This document shows, one piece after another, positions 3,010 through 12,049 of a DNA stretch of 64,000 bases (positions within the stretch are counted from its first letter, which is position 1; the number at the start of each line of letters is the position of its first letter). Below the pieces are notes generated by a model that had not been told where the DNA came from, made no database searches, and was given only the letters and a program-made list of their open reading frames with translations. A program made the position numbers and the translations under genes. The stretch is from Haloarcula halobia (GTDB taxonomy: Archaea; Halobacteriota; Halobacteria; Halobacteriales; Haloarculaceae): assembly GCF_029338255.1 (NCBI RefSeq), contig NZ_CP119787.1, positions 2,356,001 to 2,420,000 of the forward strand, written 5' to 3'.

Positions 3010-3654
3010 TCACTCGCTTCGCACCGGGTCGAACCGGCGGGCGGCGATCGCGACGTCCGCCGGGGTGTCGACGCTCGTCAGCGACCGGCGGCCGACCGCC
3101 GCGGACGCCACGTCGAGTTCCCGGGTGGGCAGGCGCCTGAGCACCGCTCGCAGACTCCGCTCGCCGTCGTCGAGCGCGGCACCGGCCGCCTCGATGGTCT
3201 CGGCGACCGGATAGACGGCGTGGAGCGGTTCAGGGCCGTCGGCCGTGGTCGGTACCACGGCACAGGGGCCCTCCGGGACACGTTCCAGCAGGGCGGCGAG
3301 AGACGGTGGTTCGACGAGGGGCATGTCGCAGGCGACGGCCACGGCGTACTCCGTCTCGACGAGGCGGAACGCGTCCCGGAGTCCCGTCAGCGGCCCCTCG
3401 TCGGGGCGTTCGTCGACTGCGAACCGGACGCCACGCGCCCGGTCGGAGAGCGCGGCCGCAAACGCCTCGCGCTGGTCGGCCCGGCAGTTCACGACGACGT
3501 CGCCGGTCACCGAGCCCACCCTGCCGACGACGTGGTCGAGCATCGGCCGCCCGCCGAGCGGGGCGAGCGCCTTCTCCCGGTCGCCGAACCGCCGGCCGCG
3601 ACCGCCGGCGACGACGACCCCGGTCGCCGGCGTCGCCAGGCCGGCGTCGATCAC
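3010..3654 (-). CDS. mobA: Molybdenum cofactor guanylyltransferase MobA
   Basis: Protein of 214 residues. The N-terminal GVVVAGGRGRRFG is the nucleotide-binding signature of MobA, followed by EKALAPLGGRPML and the VACDMPLV motif that carries the metal-binding aspartate. MobA transfers GMP to molybdopterin to make the bis-MGD form of the cofactor that NarG uses. The GTG start overlaps the stop of the Mrp-like gene as GTGA. It is the last gene of the nitrate reductase operon, so cofactor maturation is made together with the enzyme. Confidence 0.9.
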   Translation of the reverse strand: MIDAGLATPATGVVVAGGRGRRFGDREKALAPLGGRPMLDHVVGRVGSVTGDVVVNCRADQREAFAAALSDRARGVRFAVDERPDEGPLTGLRDAFRLVETEYAVAVACDMPLVEPPSLAALLERVPEGPCAVVPTTADGPEPLHAVYPVAETIEAAGAALDDGERSLRAVLRRLPTRELDVASAAVGRRSLTSVDTPADVAIAARRFDPVRSE

Positions 3655-4892
3655 GGCTTGACTGTCTCTAAGACCCAGTCGTCGGGCGTCGCCCGCCGGA
3701 CCTCGAACGGGTCGAACGCCGACCGCGGCGCCGCCGCGAGCCGCCCGAGGAAGGGCCCGACCGGGCTCGGGTCGCGGTCGCTGACGAGGACGAACCGGTC
3801 ACCGCTGTCCAGCGTCTCGAACCGCTCGCGGACGCGGTCCTTTCGCTCGCCGGGTGGCTGCCCGCGGATGTCGACGGCATCCGCGGGGACGTCGACGGTC
3901 CCGGCAGCGTCGAGAGCGTCCGTCACGGCGGTGCCCAGGCCGGCGACTACCTCCGGGACGGCGCCGGGCTCTGCCGTCCCCTGCAGGTCGTGCGTGAACG
4001 GCACCTCCAGCAGGACCGGCGCGTCGAGGTCCGAGAGTGCGTCCTCGGTGAACAGGTCGTTGGCCTCGCCACAGCAGTCACAGACGTACTCGGCCATGTT
4101 GACGACGGTCCCCAGCACCGGGACGTCGTTGTCCCGGAACAGTTCGACGGTCCGGGCGGTGTCGCTGACACTCGCGTGGAACGGGGTCGTGACGACGACG
4201 ACGCCATCGACCGGCACCTCCTGAAGCGTCGTCAGCACCACGTCGCCTGTCCCCGGCGGGAGGTCGACGACGAGCACGTCGTCGTTTCGCCACGCCGTGT
4301 TCGCAAAGAGGTCGTCCAGCGCGTCGTGGGCCATCGCCCCCCGCCAGGCCAGCGGCGCGCCGGACTCCATCAGCCCGACGCTCATGACGTCCATCCCGCC
4401 GGTCCCGACCGGGAGGGGGTCCCCTTCGTCGCTGGAGTGGACGGGCCCGCTGACGTCGAGCAGCGACGGGACGTTCGGCCCGTGGATGTCGGCGTCGAAC
4501 AGCGCCACGTCGTGGTCGGCGGCGAGGGCACACGCCAGATAGGCAGCCGTGGTGGACTTGCCGACGCCGCCCTTCGCGCTGGCGACGGCGACGACGTGGT
4601 CGAACGCGTCGACGCTGGCGCGACTGTCGGTGGACGGGGTCGCGCGCTCGACGTGGGCGCTGTCGACGCCGTCGACGTCGTCGACGGCCCGGAGCATCGC
4701 CTCCACGACCTGGGTACTGGTCTCCGCGTCGAGCGCCGCCAGGTCGGCGTGAATCGTGGCCTCGCCGTCCTCGACGGCGACGTCCTCGACGAACCCGGCG
4801 TCGAACACCGAGAGGTCGGCCTCGGGGTCCCGGACGGCTCTGAGCGCTGCTTCGATGCGGTCGGTCACGGTGGGGTCGGACTGGGCTGTCAT
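3651..4892 (-). CDS. Mrp/NBP35-type P-loop ATPase with DUF59 head and DUF2249-like tail
   Basis: Protein of 413 residues. Residues 1-80 form a MIP18/DUF59 domain. The deviant Walker A motif AKGGVGKST is at 106-114. A CDCCGE cysteine pair near residue 270 matches the metal or Fe-S binding CxxC of Mrp scaffolds. The last 70 residues (ERFETLDSGDRFVLVSDRDP and on) resemble a DUF2249 domain, which is unusual as an Mrp fusion. The ATG at 4892 lies two bases after the HEAT gene stop; the longer open frame upstream has shadow composition. Mrp proteins carry and transfer Fe-S clusters. Its position between narJ-side genes and mobA suggests a role in maturing the NarGH or Rieske clusters; that role is inferred. 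Confidence 0.88.
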   Translation of the reverse strand: MTAQSDPTVTDRIEAALRAVRDPEADLSVFDAGFVEDVAVEDGEATIHADLAALDAETSTQVVEAMLRAVDDVDGVDSAHVERATPSTDSRASVDAFDHVVAVASAKGGVGKSTTAAYLACALAADHDVALFDADIHGPNVPSLLDVSGPVHSSDEGDPLPVGTGGMDVMSVGLMESGAPLAWRGAMAHDALDDLFANTAWRNDDVLVVDLPPGTGDVVLTTLQEVPVDGVVVVTTPFHASVSDTARTVELFRDNDVPVLGTVVNMAEYVCDCCGEANDLFTEDALSDLDAPVLLEVPFTHDLQGTAEPGAVPEVVAGLGTAVTDALDAAGTVDVPADAVDIRGQPPGERKDRVRERFETLDSGDRFVLVSDRDPSPVGPFLGRLAAAPRSAFDPFEVRRATPDDWVLETVKP

Positions 4893-4894
4893 CG

Positions 4895-5608
4895 TTAGAG
4901 GTCTGGCATGCGGTTGAGGCGGTCCTCGCCGGGGAGCAGTCGCGCGTCGTTCTCCAGGGGGCCGCCGAACTGTCGGCGGAAGCGGCCGGGGTCGGCTTCC
5001 AGAGCGCGCTCGGCCGTCTGGCGGACCACCGTCGCGGGGTCCCCGGTGAGCTCGCGGAGGCGTTCGCGCGCCCGGTCCTCGTCGACGCCGCCGAGCATGT
5101 GGGCCGCCCACTCCCGGACGCGCTCGCTGTCGTCGCGGCTCTGTTCGAGCAGCAGGTCGGCCATCGCCTCCCCGCGGAGTTTGAACAGCGAGACGGCGGC
5201 GTTCCGACGGACGGCGTGGTGGGCGTCATCCGTCGCCTCCTCGATGTCCGACTCGTGGGCCTCCCTGTCGACGTTGTCCAGCGTGACAACGGCTTCCGCG
5301 CGGACCCACGGGTCGGGGTCGTCGAGCAGTTCGACGGCCACGGCTGCCGCGACTTCGCCGCCGTGGTGCGTCAGCGATTCGACGGCGAACTGGCGGACGT
5401 CGCTGTCGTCGTCCCCGGTGGCGGCCTTCGCCAGCGCCGTCACCACGGCCTCGCTCGAGGGGTGGTCCTGCAGCGCGAGGGCGGCGCGGCGGCGGTCGAC
5501 CGTCGCCCCCGTCTCCAGGTCGGCGAGCAGGTCGGCCGTGGCGACGCCGTCCACGGGTTCGGTGTCGGTCGCCGCCAGCTCCTCGGGCGTCGCCTCGCCG
5601 ATGGTCAC
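4895..5608 (-). CDS. HEAT-repeat protein, 5' part cut off by in-frame TAG
   Basis: Residues from the GTG at 5608 form repeated helical pairs of HEAT/PBS-lyase type (for example DDPDPWVRAEAVVTL, DDAHHAVRRNAAVSLF, DDSERVREWAAHML), a scaffold for protein contacts. The frame does not begin naturally here. It continues upstream through an open stretch with normal haloarchaeal coding sense to a TAG at 5684-5686, beyond which the same frame runs to an ATG at 5752 that overlaps the previous stop as ATGA. The intact form would be about 285 residues. Either a restart at this GTG, readthrough, a nonsense mutation or a base error applies. It may act on NarGH assembly, judging only by its place in the operon. 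Confidence 0.75.
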   Translation of the reverse strand: MTIGEATPEELAATDTEPVDGVATADLLADLETGATVDRRRAALALQDHPSSEAVVTALAKAATGDDDSDVRQFAVESLTHHGGEVAAAVAVELLDDPDPWVRAEAVVTLDNVDREAHESDIEEATDDAHHAVRRNAAVSLFKLRGEAMADLLLEQSRDDSERVREWAAHMLGGVDEDRARERLRELTGDPATVVRQTAERALEADPGRFRRQFGGPLENDARLLPGEDRLNRMPDL

Positions 5609-5683
5609 GTCCTCGCGACTGACCTCGATGTCTTCGAGCGCCTCGACGTCGCTGTGGAACCCCGGACTGCGCTCGGGGTCGAG

Positions 5684-5752
5684 CTAGGGGTCGGGGTCGG
5701 CCTCGACCTGTCTCTCGTACCGGTCGTCGTCACTCGGGCACCCGTCGGTCAT
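5684..5752 (-). pseudogene. 22-codon 5' piece of the HEAT-repeat gene, ending in TAG
   Basis: The ATG at 5752 overlaps the stop of the preceding membrane-protein gene (ATGA), as is normal for this operon. It reads 22 acidic codons ending DPDP and then meets TAG at 5686-5684. The 25 codons after the TAG stay in the same frame and join the HEAT-repeat reading frame. A single GAG to TAG change would explain the break. Confidence 0.6.
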
Positions 5753-6612
5753 CGTCCGGCCTCCCGCGTGACGAGGACGGCGACGCCGAGCGCGAACGGA
5801 ACCGCCCGCGGGAGCGACGCCGGAACGCCGGCCAGCGCGACGAGTACGATGCCGGCCAGCAGCGTCCAGCGACGGGTCCTGGCTGCGGCGCTCGCGGCCG
5901 TCACGGCCCCGGCGACGGCGAGCGCAACGAAGGGGAGGCCCGCGCCGACCACGCCGCCGCCGACCAGCGTGACCGCACCGGTGACGAACGGCACCGACAG
6001 GCCCACGACGAGGACCACGACGAACGCCAGCGCCCCGCCGAGGAGTGACTCGGCGTCGGTCGCCGCGAACAGGGGCGTGAGCGCGACGCCACCCAGCGCG
6101 AACGTCGACGCGAGCGGTCTGAGCGCCGTCCAGTCGCCGACGCCGCTCGCGAGCGCGAGTCCGAGCGCGGCGACGAGGACGGTGGTGGCGAGGCCACGTG
6201 CCCGGCAAAGGCTTCGTCGGCTTGCGAGTGCGACGGTTCCGGTACCTGCGGCCACCGCCACCGCGGCGGGCATGGCCGCCCCCCGTGAGACGAGTGCGAG
6301 ACCGCCGAACACCCCGACGAACAGGAGTCCGACGCCGGCCGCCGGGTCGGAACGGGTCACCCCGATACTGACCGCACCCAGCGCGGCCAGCACCATCGCC
6401 ATGGCCGCGAGCGGGCCGGGCGCGACCCCGACCGCCTGGCCACCCACTGCGACGCCGCCCGGGAGGGTCAGCGGCGCGTTCACCGCCAGGCGAGCGACGA
6501 AACTCGCCGTGAGCGCGACGGCGGCGAATCCGCTGCCGGCGACCGTCGCCGCGCGACGCGACCGATCGTCGACCGGGGGCGCCCACCGCCGCGCGACCGA
6601 CGGGACGCTCAT
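5749..6612 (-). CDS. Polytopic membrane protein of the nar operon, function unknown
   Basis: Protein of 287 residues made almost entirely of Ala/Val/Gly/Leu-rich membrane helices, about eight to nine of them, with an arginine-rich cytoplasmic N-terminus. No catalytic or metal motif is obvious. The ATG overlaps the narJ stop as ATGA, and its own stop overlaps the start of the HEAT gene in the same way. It is clearly part of the nitrate reductase transcript. A transporter or membrane assembly role is possible, but the sequence does not show which. Confidence 0.75.
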   Translation of the reverse strand: MSVPSVARRWAPPVDDRSRRAATVAGSGFAAVALTASFVARLAVNAPLTLPGGVAVGGQAVGVAPGPLAAMAMVLAALGAVSIGVTRSDPAAGVGLLFVGVFGGLALVSRGAAMPAAVAVAAGTGTVALASRRSLCRARGLATTVLVAALGLALASGVGDWTALRPLASTFALGGVALTPLFAATDAESLLGGALAFVVVLVVGLSVPFVTGAVTLVGGGVVGAGLPFVALAVAGAVTAASAAARTRRWTLLAGIVLVALAGVPASLPRAVPFALGVAVLVTREAGR

Positions 6613-7289
6613 CGCTGCCCCTCCAGGCGCTCGGCCAGATCGTTCCGGTCGGCGCGGACGACGGCCTCAAGGAGCTGGCCCAGCGGGCCGTAGATGCCGG
6701 TTCCGGGTTCCTCAGAGAGCCGGTCGTTGACGCCGGTCGCGGCGTGGCCGAGGTGGCGGTCGTGGAAGTCGAGCCGTGCTGCTGCGGCGTCCGGTCCGAC
6801 GGCGGCCTCGCGCCGGGCCAGGTAGCCCGCGAACTCCAGTTCGTAACTGAGCGCGTCGTGGTTGTCCCGGTTCCCCTGGTCGATCTCGAGGCCGTAGTAC
6901 TGGTAGGCCCGCGAGAGGTCGAGATTCACGTCGTTCCAGGACGTCCCGGGGCGGTACTTCGACTCGTATAGCGGCACCGGCGGGCCCGACGCGTCGAGCG
7001 AGCCGTCGGTCCGGTCGGTGTACTCGCTGTACCCCAGCTGGAAGACGTCGTTGTAGCGGGCCGCGAGCTGCTCGTAGTCGTCGTCGGTGGTCAGCGGCGG
7101 CACCTCGAACGCGAACGGCGTCCGGTCGAGACACGCCCGGACGTCGGCGTCCAGCGACCCGTTCCGGGCGACCTCGTGGAAGGACTCGTCCGGGTGTTCG
7201 AACGCTCTCGCGAGCACTCTGAAGAGGGTCCCGCGAGCCGTCGCGTCCGCATCGATGGCGGCCTCCGAATCGTCTGCCGTCGACCCCAT
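6609..7289 (-). CDS. narJ: Nitrate reductase chaperone NarJ (TorD/DmsD family)
   Basis: Protein of 226 residues from the ATG at 7289, which shares its A with the stop of the upstream subunit gene (TGATG). The all-helical sequence contains the TorD-type pattern LARAFEHPDESFHEV near the start and a Y-x-x-x-F core (YNDVFQLGYSEYTD; YELEFAGYLARRE). NarJ-type chaperones hold the molybdoenzyme subunit until its cofactor is inserted and, for Tat substrates, until folding is done. NarG here has a Tat signal, so this protein probably also proofreads export. It lies two genes after narH, as in other haloarchaeal nar operons. Confidence 0.88.
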   Translation of the reverse strand: MGSTADDSEAAIDADATARGTLFRVLARAFEHPDESFHEVARNGSLDADVRACLDRTPFAFEVPPLTTDDDYEQLAARYNDVFQLGYSEYTDRTDGSLDASGPPVPLYESKYRPGTSWNDVNLDLSRAYQYYGLEIDQGNRDNHDALSYELEFAGYLARREAAVGPDAAAARLDFHDRHLGHAATGVNDRLSEEPGTGIYGPLGQLLEAVVRADRNDLAERLEGQR

Positions 7290-8131
7290 CACTGCATCCC
7301 CCCTCGGGCGCGGGCGACGCCGAAGGCCGTCACGGCGACGACGGCGACGACGGCGACGCCGGCGACCGACCACAGGAGCGCCTCGAAGGGGGGTCCCGCG
7401 GACCGGGACTCGGACGGGAAGTAGTGCCACTCGCTGACGGACTTCTGCCCCGCCCGCTCGGCGTTCGAGCCGTTCCAGACCGCGAAGGCCACGTCGAGGT
7501 CCCCCTCGGTCTCGAGCGTGGTCCGGTTCTCGCCGGCAGCCTCCAGGTCACGGACGTAGACGACCGTCCAGGTAGCGTTCGCGCCGCTCCCGTGGTAGGT
7601 CGCGTTCGCGCTTACGGCCGGGTCGGGGAACGCCGTCGTCGACCCCGGCCCGCCGGCGAGCAGTTCCTGGGTCCCCGTATCGCTGCTCCAGTACCAGACG
7701 TTGACCATGTTCCGCTGCCCGCCCATCGCTATCGGTGGCCGGGCGCTGGTGTTGACCGGGAACTGCACGGCGACGGCGTCGTTGAACCGCCGCATCGAGT
7801 CGGCGCCGACGTCCCGCGTCGCGTCGTGCCACTGGAGGCGGACGAAGAGCCGCTCGTCGCTCCGGGCCGCCTGCACGTGGACCGTCTCGACGGTCGTGTC
7901 GTCTGCGTTCGGGACGCTACTGGGGGCGCTGCCGAGCGCCACGTCCGAACTCGGGACGCCGTCCCAGCCGTCGGCGGTGGGGCTGGCGAGACCCGATCCC
8001 TGGACCTCGCTGAAGGGTATCTCGTGGGCGGGTCGGGCGCTCGCGAACGGCGTCGCGACCGAGGTGAGCACCACGAGGGCCGCGATGCACACGACCGAGA
8101 CCGTGACGCGGCTGGGCCGCCCCTCACCCAT
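7289..8131 (-). CDS. Ethylbenzene-dehydrogenase-type haem-binding subunit of nitrate reductase
   Basis: Protein of 280 residues with an N-terminal export signal (VVCIAALVVLTSVATPFASA) and a C-terminal transmembrane anchor (LLWSVAGVAVVAVVAVTAFG) followed by arginines. The soluble middle part matches the haem b domain of the gamma subunits of ethylbenzene and dimethylsulfide dehydrogenases. Candidate axial ligands are methionines in AMGGQRNM and the lysine in AGQKSVSEWHYF. It would sit on the outer face and pass electrons to NarH in place of a NarI subunit. Its start lies eight bases inside the 3' end of narH. The equivalent reading frame in Haloferax nar operons is known only as ORF7. Confidence 0.8.
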   Translation of the reverse strand: MGEGRPSRVTVSVVCIAALVVLTSVATPFASARPAHEIPFSEVQGSGLASPTADGWDGVPSSDVALGSAPSSVPNADDTTVETVHVQAARSDERLFVRLQWHDATRDVGADSMRRFNDAVAVQFPVNTSARPPIAMGGQRNMVNVWYWSSDTGTQELLAGGPGSTTAFPDPAVSANATYHGSGANATWTVVYVRDLEAAGENRTTLETEGDLDVAFAVWNGSNAERAGQKSVSEWHYFPSESRSAGPPFEALLWSVAGVAVVAVVAVTAFGVARARGGMQ

Positions 8132-9191
8132 CGTCGAACACCTCGAGCCGGTACTGTTTCGCCGGGTTCTTGTCCTGGAGAATCTCCATCAGTTCGCTCT
8201 CGCCGCCCCGTTCGATTCGCTGTCGATGGCGTTCGATGGTATCGAGCGCCTGGTCGATGCCCTCGCCGAACAGCTGCTCGAGGTACTGTCGGGGGATGCG
8301 GTCGACGTCCACCGTCTCCCCGTCCTCGGTGTGCTGTGGCGGCGCAAAGGGCGGGATGTAGTAGACGTTGGGCTGGGTCTGGAACTCCGGGTGGAGCGGG
8401 AGCGCCACCTCGTACTCCTCGACGAGTTTGTAGATGGGGCCCTGCTCGTCGTCGAGGAAGCCGACCAGTCGGAGCTGGGGCGGGCACTCCTCGGCACACG
8501 CCGGGGCGTAGGTCTGCCCGTCGGGCCCCTCGCCCTCGATGCGCGGGTAACAGAAGATGCACTTCTCGGATTTCTTCGAGACGGTGTTGTAGTACACCTT
8601 CTTGTACGGACAGCCCTCGACACAGTACCGGTAGCCCCGGCAGCGCTCCTGGTCGACCAGTACGATGCCGTCCTCCTCGCGCTTGTACAGCGCTGAGCGG
8701 GGGCAGGCCTCGACGCAGGAGGGGTGCGTACAGTGGTTGCAGATGCGCGGGAGATAGAAGTAGTAGGAGTTGGGGTACTCGCCGGCGCCCTCGTCCTCGT
8801 CCCAGTTGGGTCCCCACTCCGCGCCCTCGCGGGGCCGCAGCGGTTCGTCGCTGCCCTCGTACATGATTTCGCTGTGATTGAACTCCCAGGCGCGGCCGTA
8901 GTCCTCCTGGTCGGGAATCTCGCCGGGCTGACGTTCCGAGTGCTCGCCGGACTGCCACCCGCCGCCGGAGTCTTCCCACCCTCGCGGGTACCCCGCACCG
9001 GGTTTGGTCTCGACGTTGTTCCAGTACATGTACTCGCTGCCGCCGTCCTCCGTCCAGAGAGTCTTACAGGCGATAGTGCAGGTCTGACAGCCGATACACT
9101 TGTTGAGGTCCATCACCATCGCGACCTGGTGATCGATGCCCTCGGCGACGTCGATCTGCGTGTCCGAGTCGTCCTGCTGGTCGGTACTCAC
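8124..9191 (-). CDS. narH: Respiratory nitrate reductase beta subunit NarH
   Basis: Protein of 355 residues with four cysteine groups for Fe-S clusters: CIGCQTCTIAC near residue 32, CNHCTHPSCVEACP, CRGYRYCVEGCP, and CIFC with a late CAEEC. In the third group a tyrosine stands where NarH normally has tryptophan and four-cluster ferredoxins have cysteine, so this site should still hold a [3Fe-4S] cluster. It carries electrons to NarG. It has no signal of its own and would be exported with NarG. The start overlaps the narG stop by four bases (ATGA type). Confidence 0.95.
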   Translation of the reverse strand: MSTDQQDDSDTQIDVAEGIDHQVAMVMDLNKCIGCQTCTIACKTLWTEDGGSEYMYWNNVETKPGAGYPRGWEDSGGGWQSGEHSERQPGEIPDQEDYGRAWEFNHSEIMYEGSDEPLRPREGAEWGPNWDEDEGAGEYPNSYYFYLPRICNHCTHPSCVEACPRSALYKREEDGIVLVDQERCRGYRYCVEGCPYKKVYYNTVSKKSEKCIFCYPRIEGEGPDGQTYAPACAEECPPQLRLVGFLDDEQGPIYKLVEEYEVALPLHPEFQTQPNVYYIPPFAPPQHTEDGETVDVDRIPRQYLEQLFGEGIDQALDTIERHRQRIERGGESELMEILQDKNPAKQYRLEVFDDG

Positions 9192-12049
9192 TGGTCGTCA
9201 CCCCCCGCGGGCCGTACGTCCACGCGGACGTCGCTGTTGACGCCGGTCGGTCCCCAGTAGTTGGGGAAGAAGTGCAGGTGTTCGCCGGTTTCCTCGGGGT
9301 ACTGGACGAGCTGGGTCGGTTTCATGTACATCGGGACGAGGGTGTTGAAGTTGTCGCGACCGGGGTACTGGAACTTCTCCCAGGAGAAGAAGTGCCGCAG
9401 CGTCCCGGGTTCGCTGGAGGGGTAGTACTTCGCCTGTACCTCGACTGCGCCGAGGTCGTTGAACACCTCGACGGTGTCGCCGTCTTCGATGCCGCGTTCG
9501 GCGGCGTCGTCGGGATTGATGAAGACGGTTGGTTCGCCCCGCTGGAGGCGGAGCATCTTCGTGTTCTCGCGCCACGTCGAGTGGATGGACCACCTGCTGT
9601 GGGGCGTGTTGTACGACAGGGGGTAGTCCCCGCCGGTGTCCTGGGGGCCTCGCTTGTGGGTCGGCAACGCCTCGTCGAGTTCGAGGAACCAGTCGTGGTC
9701 GACGTAGTACTGCTGGCGGCCGGTGAACGTCGGCCAGGGTTCCTTGTCGTGAACGTAACTCTGCCAGGGAACGTACGCCTCGCCCTCTTCGATGTCGGAG
9801 GTCCAGTGGCTCCCGGCGGCCAGGAGGCGCTGGGGCTGCTCCTCCGTGTCGGCGAAGGTTATCTGGTCGTCGGTGTCGCTCGGGTTCGACTCCTCGGAGT
9901 GTTCGAGGATGAACTCGGAGGCCGCGCGGCCGTCTTCGAGGGCGTCCTCCTCGCCGGTCTCCCAGTCGCGGACGTAGTCGTCGTAGATGGTGGTGAGGTC
10001 GATTGTGCGGTCGAACTTGCGGTCCTCGACCGGGTCGACGTCGCGTTCGATGGCCCGCTCTTGAATCTTCTCGGCCAGCGAGCGGAATATCTCCCAGTCG
10101 GTCCGGGCCTCGCCCAGCGGTTCGACGGCGGGCGTGAACGGGTGCACGTACGTGTGCATGTCCGTCATGTTCAGGTCGTACTTCTCGTAGTGACTCGCCG
10201 CCGGCAGGACGATGTCCGAGTACATCGCCGTCGAGTCCATCCGGAAGTTGATGTCCACCACGAGGTCGAGTTTCGGCCAGAGCTGCTCATCGACGGCGAG
10301 GTTGCCCTTGGCCTGGTTGAAGTAGTTGCCCCGCCAGACGAACATGGTCGTCGGGTCCGGCCGGAAGCCGTCCTCACGTTCCTCCGGGTACACCGGCATC
10401 CACCCCTCGTCGATGGAGTGGCGGATCTTCTCGGCCGTGTCGGGATCGGTGTTGTCGAGGATGCCGGCGTGGAAGTAGGTCCACAGCGTCGTCGGCACGC
10501 CCCGGACGCTGCCGGTGGGGAACGAGAGGACCTTCCAGCCGTGGAACGTCCAGATCTTCTCCTGGCCGACGTAGTGGTCCAGCCCGGTCCCGGGCTCGCC
10601 GAGGTTGCCCGTCAGCGTCACGAGCAACTGGATGGCGCGGTTGCCCAGGTCGTTGTGGTACCAGTCGTTGACGCCCTTGCCGTGGATGATCTTCGCGGCG
10701 TCGGCCTCGGCGAACTCGCGGGCGACGCGCTGGTAGGTGTTCTCGCCGACGCCGGTCTCCTCGTGGACGAACTCGGGGGTGTACTGGGCGAGTTCGTCCC
10801 GGAGATTCTCCCAGACCGTGCGGACCCGGACCGTGCCGTCGTCGGCCTGGACGGTCCGGTCGGCCGACAACTGCGGGTCGAAGTCGAGTTCGATGCTCGC
10901 ATCGGGGTCGTGCTGGCCGTCACGTTCGCCGAGCGACCCCGGCGCAGTCCTGAGAGTCCCGTCGGCGTCGACCATCACGAACACCTTCTCGGGGTCGTCG
11001 GCGTCGGTCGCCATTCCGACCTCGCTCGCCCGGAGGAACTTCCCGGTGTCCTCGCGGACGAGCAGCGGCATGTCGGTCTGCTCTTTGAGGTGGGCCTCGT
11101 CGTACAGGCCCTCGCTGACGATGGTCTGGGCCATCCCGAGCGCGAGCGCGGTGTCGGTCCCGCCCTCCGGCGAGATCCACTCGTCGGTGTGGATGGCCGT
11201 CTGGGAGTAGTCGGTGAAGACGCCGACGCGCTTGGTGCCGTTGTAGCCGGCGTCGAGGAAGTACTTCGCGTCGGGGATGCGCGTGACGTTGACGTTCGAC
11301 CCCCAGGCGACGAGGTAGTCGGCGTTGTACCAGTCCGCCGACTCGGCGTTGTCGGTCTGGGTGCCCCAGGTGATTGGCTGGCCAGGCGGCAGGTCGGAGT
11401 ACCAGTCGTAGAAGCTGTGCGAGACGCCGCCCAGCAGGTTGACCAGCCGAGAGCCGCTGGCAAAGGAGACGGGTGACATCGCCGGGATGGGTGTGAACCC
11501 GGAGATGGCGTCGTATCGGCCCTCCTGGACCTCGTCGATGACGTGGTCGGCGATCTCGGTCAGCGCCTCGTCCCAGGAGATGCGCTCCCACTGGCCCTCG
11601 CCCCGGTCCCCGGTGCGCCGGAGGGGGTGGGTCACTCGCTGGTCCGCGTTGACGTAGTCGGTGTAACAGGCTCCCTTCTGACACCCGCGGGGGTTCGGGT
11701 CCGGGAGGTCGTCGTCGATGGTCGGGTAGTCACCGGCCTGCTCCTCGCGCCAGACCTGGCCGTCCTTGACGAAGACGTTCCACGAGCACGACCCGGTGCA
11801 GTTGACGCTGTGGGTCGAGCGGGCGACGGAGTCCCAGTCCCACTCCTCGCGGTAGAGATCCTCCCAGTCCCGGTAGGGGTAGTCCCCGATGGGGTCGTCG
11901 ACGGCCTGCAGGCCGCGCATCCCGTCGTCGGCAAAGGAGAGGCCGGTCGCACCGAGCAACGACGCGGCACCGAGGCCCTTCACGAAGTCGCGTCTGCTGA
12001 TTCCGGAGCTGTCCATCCAGCGATCGTCGTCGGGAGTCTGTCTACTCAT
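9188..12049 (-). CDS. narG: Respiratory nitrate reductase alpha subunit NarG, Tat-exported
   Basis: Protein of 953 residues. Residues 18-25 read SRRDFVKG, a Tat signal followed by a short hydrophobic stretch, so the catalytic subunit faces outside as in other archaeal Nar enzymes. H80, C84 and C88 (HSVNCTGSC) and a later CQKGAC form the FS0 [4Fe-4S] site with its histidine ligand. YDWYSDLPPG carries the aspartate that coordinates molybdenum in true nitrate reductases. It binds bis-MGD and reduces nitrate to nitrite. The start lies eight bases inside the preceding small gene. Electrons should come from the Rieske-cytochrome b pair encoded upstream. Confidence 0.96.
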   Translation of the reverse strand: MSRQTPDDDRWMDSSGISRRDFVKGLGAASLLGATGLSFADDGMRGLQAVDDPIGDYPYRDWEDLYREEWDWDSVARSTHSVNCTGSCSWNVFVKDGQVWREEQAGDYPTIDDDLPDPNPRGCQKGACYTDYVNADQRVTHPLRRTGDRGEGQWERISWDEALTEIADHVIDEVQEGRYDAISGFTPIPAMSPVSFASGSRLVNLLGGVSHSFYDWYSDLPPGQPITWGTQTDNAESADWYNADYLVAWGSNVNVTRIPDAKYFLDAGYNGTKRVGVFTDYSQTAIHTDEWISPEGGTDTALALGMAQTIVSEGLYDEAHLKEQTDMPLLVREDTGKFLRASEVGMATDADDPEKVFVMVDADGTLRTAPGSLGERDGQHDPDASIELDFDPQLSADRTVQADDGTVRVRTVWENLRDELAQYTPEFVHEETGVGENTYQRVAREFAEADAAKIIHGKGVNDWYHNDLGNRAIQLLVTLTGNLGEPGTGLDHYVGQEKIWTFHGWKVLSFPTGSVRGVPTTLWTYFHAGILDNTDPDTAEKIRHSIDEGWMPVYPEEREDGFRPDPTTMFVWRGNYFNQAKGNLAVDEQLWPKLDLVVDINFRMDSTAMYSDIVLPAASHYEKYDLNMTDMHTYVHPFTPAVEPLGEARTDWEIFRSLAEKIQERAIERDVDPVEDRKFDRTIDLTTIYDDYVRDWETGEEDALEDGRAASEFILEHSEESNPSDTDDQITFADTEEQPQRLLAAGSHWTSDIEEGEAYVPWQSYVHDKEPWPTFTGRQQYYVDHDWFLELDEALPTHKRGPQDTGGDYPLSYNTPHSRWSIHSTWRENTKMLRLQRGEPTVFINPDDAAERGIEDGDTVEVFNDLGAVEVQAKYYPSSEPGTLRHFFSWEKFQYPGRDNFNTLVPMYMKPTQLVQYPEETGEHLHFFPNYWGPTGVNSDVRVDVRPAGGDDQ

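Follow-up and report, generated by a model that had tools for sequence, protein, structure and literature searches.

The HEAT-repeat gene of the nitrate reductase (nar) operon of Haloarcula halobia is interrupted by an in-frame TAG at codon 23, probably a recent nonsense mutation, private to the sequenced genome, in which a C-to-T transition converted the conserved Gln 23 codon CAG into TAG. The gene lies in the stretch of 64,000 nucleotides that was analysed (the window), which spans 2,356,001–2,420,000 on the larger of the two contigs of a 3.48 Mb genome, and comprises the following parts:

4895–5752, minus strand: HEAT-repeat gene of the nar operon, 286 codons including the stop, broken at codon 23 (translation)
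5687–5752, minus strand: first 22 codons, poorly conserved in the family except for the terminal DPDP
5684–5686, minus strand: in-frame TAG, standing for a Gln codon that is CAG or CAA in 22 of 22 close relatives of the genus
5609–5683, minus strand: 25 codons between TAG and GTG, strongly conserved (LDPERSPGxHxDxEALEDIEVSRED)
4898–5608, minus strand: open frame from a GTG at column Val 49 of the family, holding the whole HEAT solenoid (Pfam, and AlphaFold model of an orthologue)

Translated on the minus strand, 4895–5752 reads MTDGCPSDDDRYERQVEADPDP, the stop, then LDPERSPGFHSDVEALEDIEVSREDVTIGE and onwards, the frame being open to the TAA at 4897–4895. The ATG at 5752 shares bases with the TGA that ends the gene before it (ATGA) and has GGGAGG just 5′ of it; start codon and GGAGG are both retained. 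From there, 22 codons lead to the TAG at 5686–5684 (codon 23), and 262 open codons follow up to the TAA. The first in-frame start codon past the TAG is the GTG at 5608–5606, 25 codons or 75 nt on. The translation thereby bears out the preliminary description, which had a TAG splitting a HEAT-repeat gene of the nitrate reductase operon, with an ATG overlapping the upstream stop, 22 codons, the TAG at 5684–5686 and 25 codons lacking a start; the coding nature of both flanks is likewise confirmed. HEAT repeats are present in the gene (Pfam HEAT_2, PF13646, E = 1.4e-27), a PDB search with the family profile gives matches to alphaRep HEAT structures, and the part past the GTG shares 75–85% identity with close relatives in the genus. 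The break falls in the N-terminal motif DPxxxPExSPG...DIEVxR, whose coding sequence is present, with the TAG at its Gln codon.

Among the 31 other genomes of the genus, 24 carry the HEAT gene, and the site of the TAG is Gln (CAG or CAA) in 22 of these and Arg in the other two. In close relatives the Gln sits within the motif DPDPQLDPERSPG, the context in the genus being DPDPQLDP(E/A)(R/K)SPG. Across ≈60 non-redundant family members from Halobacteria the site is Gln or Arg and once Gly, residue outliers being confined to remote Halorhabdus-type sequences in which the alignment is unreliable. Orthologues with a species name belong to Haloarcula and other Halobacteria. None of the relatives compared, neither the 24 genus genomes nor any of the ≈60 non-redundant sequences of the family, has a stop at this site. 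Judged from these alignments the ancestor had CAG, since TAG ends in G and not in A, and the change is a single C-to-T transition. A change from GAG to TAG, as first put forward, is ruled out, since the relatives show Gln (CAG/CAA) and not Glu. The broader proposal, that one base was changed or misread in a gene of ≈285 residues that used to be intact, holds, because the relatives carry the gene intact, and the ≈285-residue form, when sought in related nar operons, was found with the frame open throughout. Every close relative begins at the upstream ATG and has the 47 upstream codons; the case considered earlier, in which relatives all start at the GTG and lack similarity upstream of it, does not apply.

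Compared with nine relatives, codons 24–48 (from TAG to GTG) show a pN/pS of 0.08–0.18, with 6–10 synonymous and 3–5 non-synonymous changes in the 25 codons. The value is 0.20–0.31 for the segment past the GTG and 0.42–0.62 for the segment before the TAG, which is less constrained and variable across the whole family; GC3 amounts to 0.91, 0.88 and 0.93 in the three segments of the gene. As codons 24–48 are under no less constraint than the remainder of the gene, the pattern of substitutions argues that they belonged to translated protein until very recently. No decay is visible in the gene beyond the stop, and this fits a sequence error or a mutation in cell culture as well as a natural allele.

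It is possible, though less likely, that the TAG represents a base-call or assembly error and that the cell has CAG and an intact gene. In favour of an error, the gene is clearly under purifying selection, relatives universally have intact copies of it, and the stop is its sole flaw; the stop also creates a CTAG. This tetramer is scarce in the window, with 12 copies where a Markov estimate predicts ≈50, in agreement with the known under-representation of CTAG in Halobacteria (PMC6471742). Against an error stand the nearly finished state of the genome (two contigs, 99.97% complete) and a coding-frame scan of 464 kb, which shows no sign of many such errors. Errors of long reads are more typically indels than lone substitutions, which also counts against this explanation. 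The scan, which covered the window and a further 400 kb of sampled sequence and used codon usage to detect in-frame stops with coding flanks, is rough and blind to frameshifts; it returned only the HEAT-gene TAG and one further match (L155, position 9637), rejected as spurious because its frame is shut by nearby stops and other ORFs overlap it. The HEAT-gene TAG exceeds chance, being the sole credible site in the 464 kb.

General recoding of TAG had been judged unlikely from the outset and is rejected here for want of support. TAG terminates 59 of 255 coding-like ORFs in the 464 kb (≈23%) and 10 of 40 in the window. A profile search of the genome for PylS gave a best match of 29.8 bits, below the cut-off of 178 bits; the same profile also responds in 13 of 14 control genomes, in one of them above the cut-off. 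No CUA anticodon was present among the 42 of 44 tRNA loci for which ARAGORN gave an anticodon, nor, by inspection, in the anticodon region of the two remaining, intron-bearing tRNAs; the set of 44 detected tRNAs is incomplete, tRNA-Trp being missing from it. In favour of programmed or suppressor-mediated readthrough of this one TAG into full-length protein are the constraint that flanks the stop on either side and the Gln ancestor, as a near-cognate tRNA-Gln could in principle restore the residue. Such readthrough is nevertheless exceedingly improbable: programmed readthrough calls for a stop conserved at the site, and no relative shares the TAG; a PylS match above cut-off and a CUA anticodon among the detected tRNAs are both lacking; TAG is an ordinary terminator; and the RNA structure around it is unremarkable (fold z = −0.89), which speaks against an RNA fold promoting readthrough. 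The alternative of programmed readthrough thus finds no support.

With regard to a restart at GTG 5608, two modes have to be distinguished. Reinitiation there is unlikely, because the gap of 75 nt exceeds the ≈22 nt at which reinitiation past a stop is nearly abolished in Haloferax volcanii (PMC10666635). This part of the earlier suggestion is disfavoured by distance, whereas de novo initiation at the GTG may still occur and would keep the HEAT domain. It could be argued that the protein is made from GTG 5608 anyway, the stop being nearly harmless and the N-terminal tail dispensable. GTG accounts for 76% of the Val codons at column 49 as compared with 25% over the Val codons of the family, and for only 26–39% in matching codon context in this genome, such that context alone explains less; moreover, the tail is predicted to be disordered and the HEAT domain starts past the GTG. 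Set against this, 17 of 68 relatives (some duplicates) have GTC, GTT, ATC or ATA at the column, the Val columns 44 and 119 are GTG-rich too, and conservation of codons 24–48 shows the long form to be the selected one; together with the reinitiation gap, these points make such a start very unlikely. Given that several genera have GTC, GTT, ATC or ATA at Val 49 and that Val 44 and Val 119 are GTG-rich, a conserved internal start is therefore unsupported, and GTG 5608 as the true conserved start is ruled out by the upstream start in relatives and by the 17 sequences with no start codon at the column. As an observation in its own right, Val 44 and Val 49 are encoded by GTG in about 70–76% of the family, compared with about 25% for Val overall, possibly a codon-context effect or an internal initiation signal. 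That the nar HEAT gene normally gives a full-length product from the ATG as well as a tail-less one from the Val 49 GTG, of which this strain lost the long one only, is highly improbable; if true, the strain would allow the tail and the HEAT solenoid to be told apart in function.

The interrupted gene is seated in an otherwise well-preserved operon, in the order Rieske protein, NarC-type cytochrome b, small protein, NarG, NarH, ethylbenzene-dehydrogenase-like protein, NarJ, a 287-residue hypothetical protein, HEAT protein, Mrp/NUBPL-type NTPase and MobA-type protein (Rieske, NarC, NarG and MobA identities were assigned from their sequences):

9188–12049, minus strand: NarG, catalytic subunit, intact
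8124–9191, minus strand: NarH, iron–sulphur subunit, intact
7289–8131, minus strand: ethylbenzene-dehydrogenase-related subunit, intact
6609–7298, minus strand: NarJ/TorD-type chaperone, intact
5749–6612, minus strand: 287-residue hypothetical protein upstream of the HEAT gene, overlapping its start by 4 nt, intact
3651–4892, minus strand: Mrp/NUBPL-type P-loop NTPase with C-terminal DUF2249, beginning 2 nt past the HEAT stop, intact
3010–3654, minus strand: MobA-type protein, so named from its sequence and not by a family search, intact open frame

All ten other genes of the operon are full length and free of stops, and decay of the entire operon is ruled out by the intact neighbours. The HEAT gene occupies the place expected of it, after narGH, the ethylbenzene-dehydrogenase-like gene, narJ and the hypothetical gene and before the Mrp-type NTPase, and the annotated order around it is identical on plasmid copies in Halomicrobium urmianum, Haloferax larsenii and Halarchaeum sp.; the MobA-type gene adjoins the operon in one of eight relatives compared. 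In Haloferax larsenii and Halarchaeum, DUF2249 also occurs as genes of its own in the vicinity of the nar cluster. In one relative (G020; L140, about 9437, plus strand) the 287-residue hypothetical protein matches as two adjacent pieces in different frames (8784–9437 and 9437–9577), which suggests that this copy carries a frameshift.

A literature search found no description of a HEAT protein of haloarchaeal nar operons. In the AlphaFold model of the orthologue from Haloarcula mannanilytica, residues 1–69 are of low confidence and about 70–260 mostly have a pLDDT above 90. Because confidence is low for the tail and high for the HEAT solenoid, a product from the GTG would, on this model, keep its fold. 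In its HEAT core the protein is similar to designed alphaRep proteins, which are a protein-binding scaffold, and this resemblance, together with the place of the gene beside NarJ and the Mrp-type NTPase, makes it likely that the intact protein helps the Nar complex to assemble or mature. Several orthologues (L028:1309-1370, L017:1342-1400 and L162:5600-5930, all plus strand) have Cys/His-rich N-terminal tails, e.g. MSHNHDHDHDCGCDSGCGC and MSDDCGCGDGGCG, and these tails suggest that the nar HEAT protein may bind metal. The orthologue from Halomicrobium urmianum has a long HGHGHDHGHSCG-type tail, most of which is omitted by the annotation, which starts at 5926.

On the reading of a C-to-T transition at Gln 23 in the sequenced genome, translation from the native ATG 5752 would stop after 22 residues, and the HEAT protein would then be absent, or present at a low level by internal initiation at GTG 5608, in a form presumably without the disordered N-terminal tail and with the whole HEAT solenoid kept. 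Overlapping gene pairs of H. volcanii were shown with premature stops to be translationally coupled (PMC6728339). A polar effect of the TAG on the Mrp-type gene is plausible, as this gene begins 2 nt past the HEAT stop and coupling is known in H. volcanii; its translation, probably coupled to that of the HEAT gene, may also drop.

In annotation the gene should be marked as probably a pseudogene or possibly a sequence error, not as recoded, and an automatic gene caller would yield a falsely short protein of 237 residues. If the base is real, the strain is a natural test of the need for an uncharacterised HEAT protein in nitrate respiration; beyond annotation the significance is small and the finding an ordinary one.

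With pyrrolysine/TAG recoding in archaea the gene shares an in-frame TAG flanked by coding sequence, but differs in that PylS stays sub-threshold, no UAG-reading tRNA was found, TAG is a common terminator and relatives have Gln or Arg at the site. It has the same slot, HEAT core and N-terminal motif as the haloarchaeal nar-operon HEAT proteins, e.g. WP_007541427.1 from Haloferax larsenii, whose frames are open throughout whereas the copy in the window has a TAG at codon 23. It is also like a recent nonsense allele, a first-stage pseudogene: here too an in-frame stop absent from orthologues arises by one substitution in a gene otherwise conserved and free of further decay, and no difference from this class was seen, a loss of function being putative for the gene described here.
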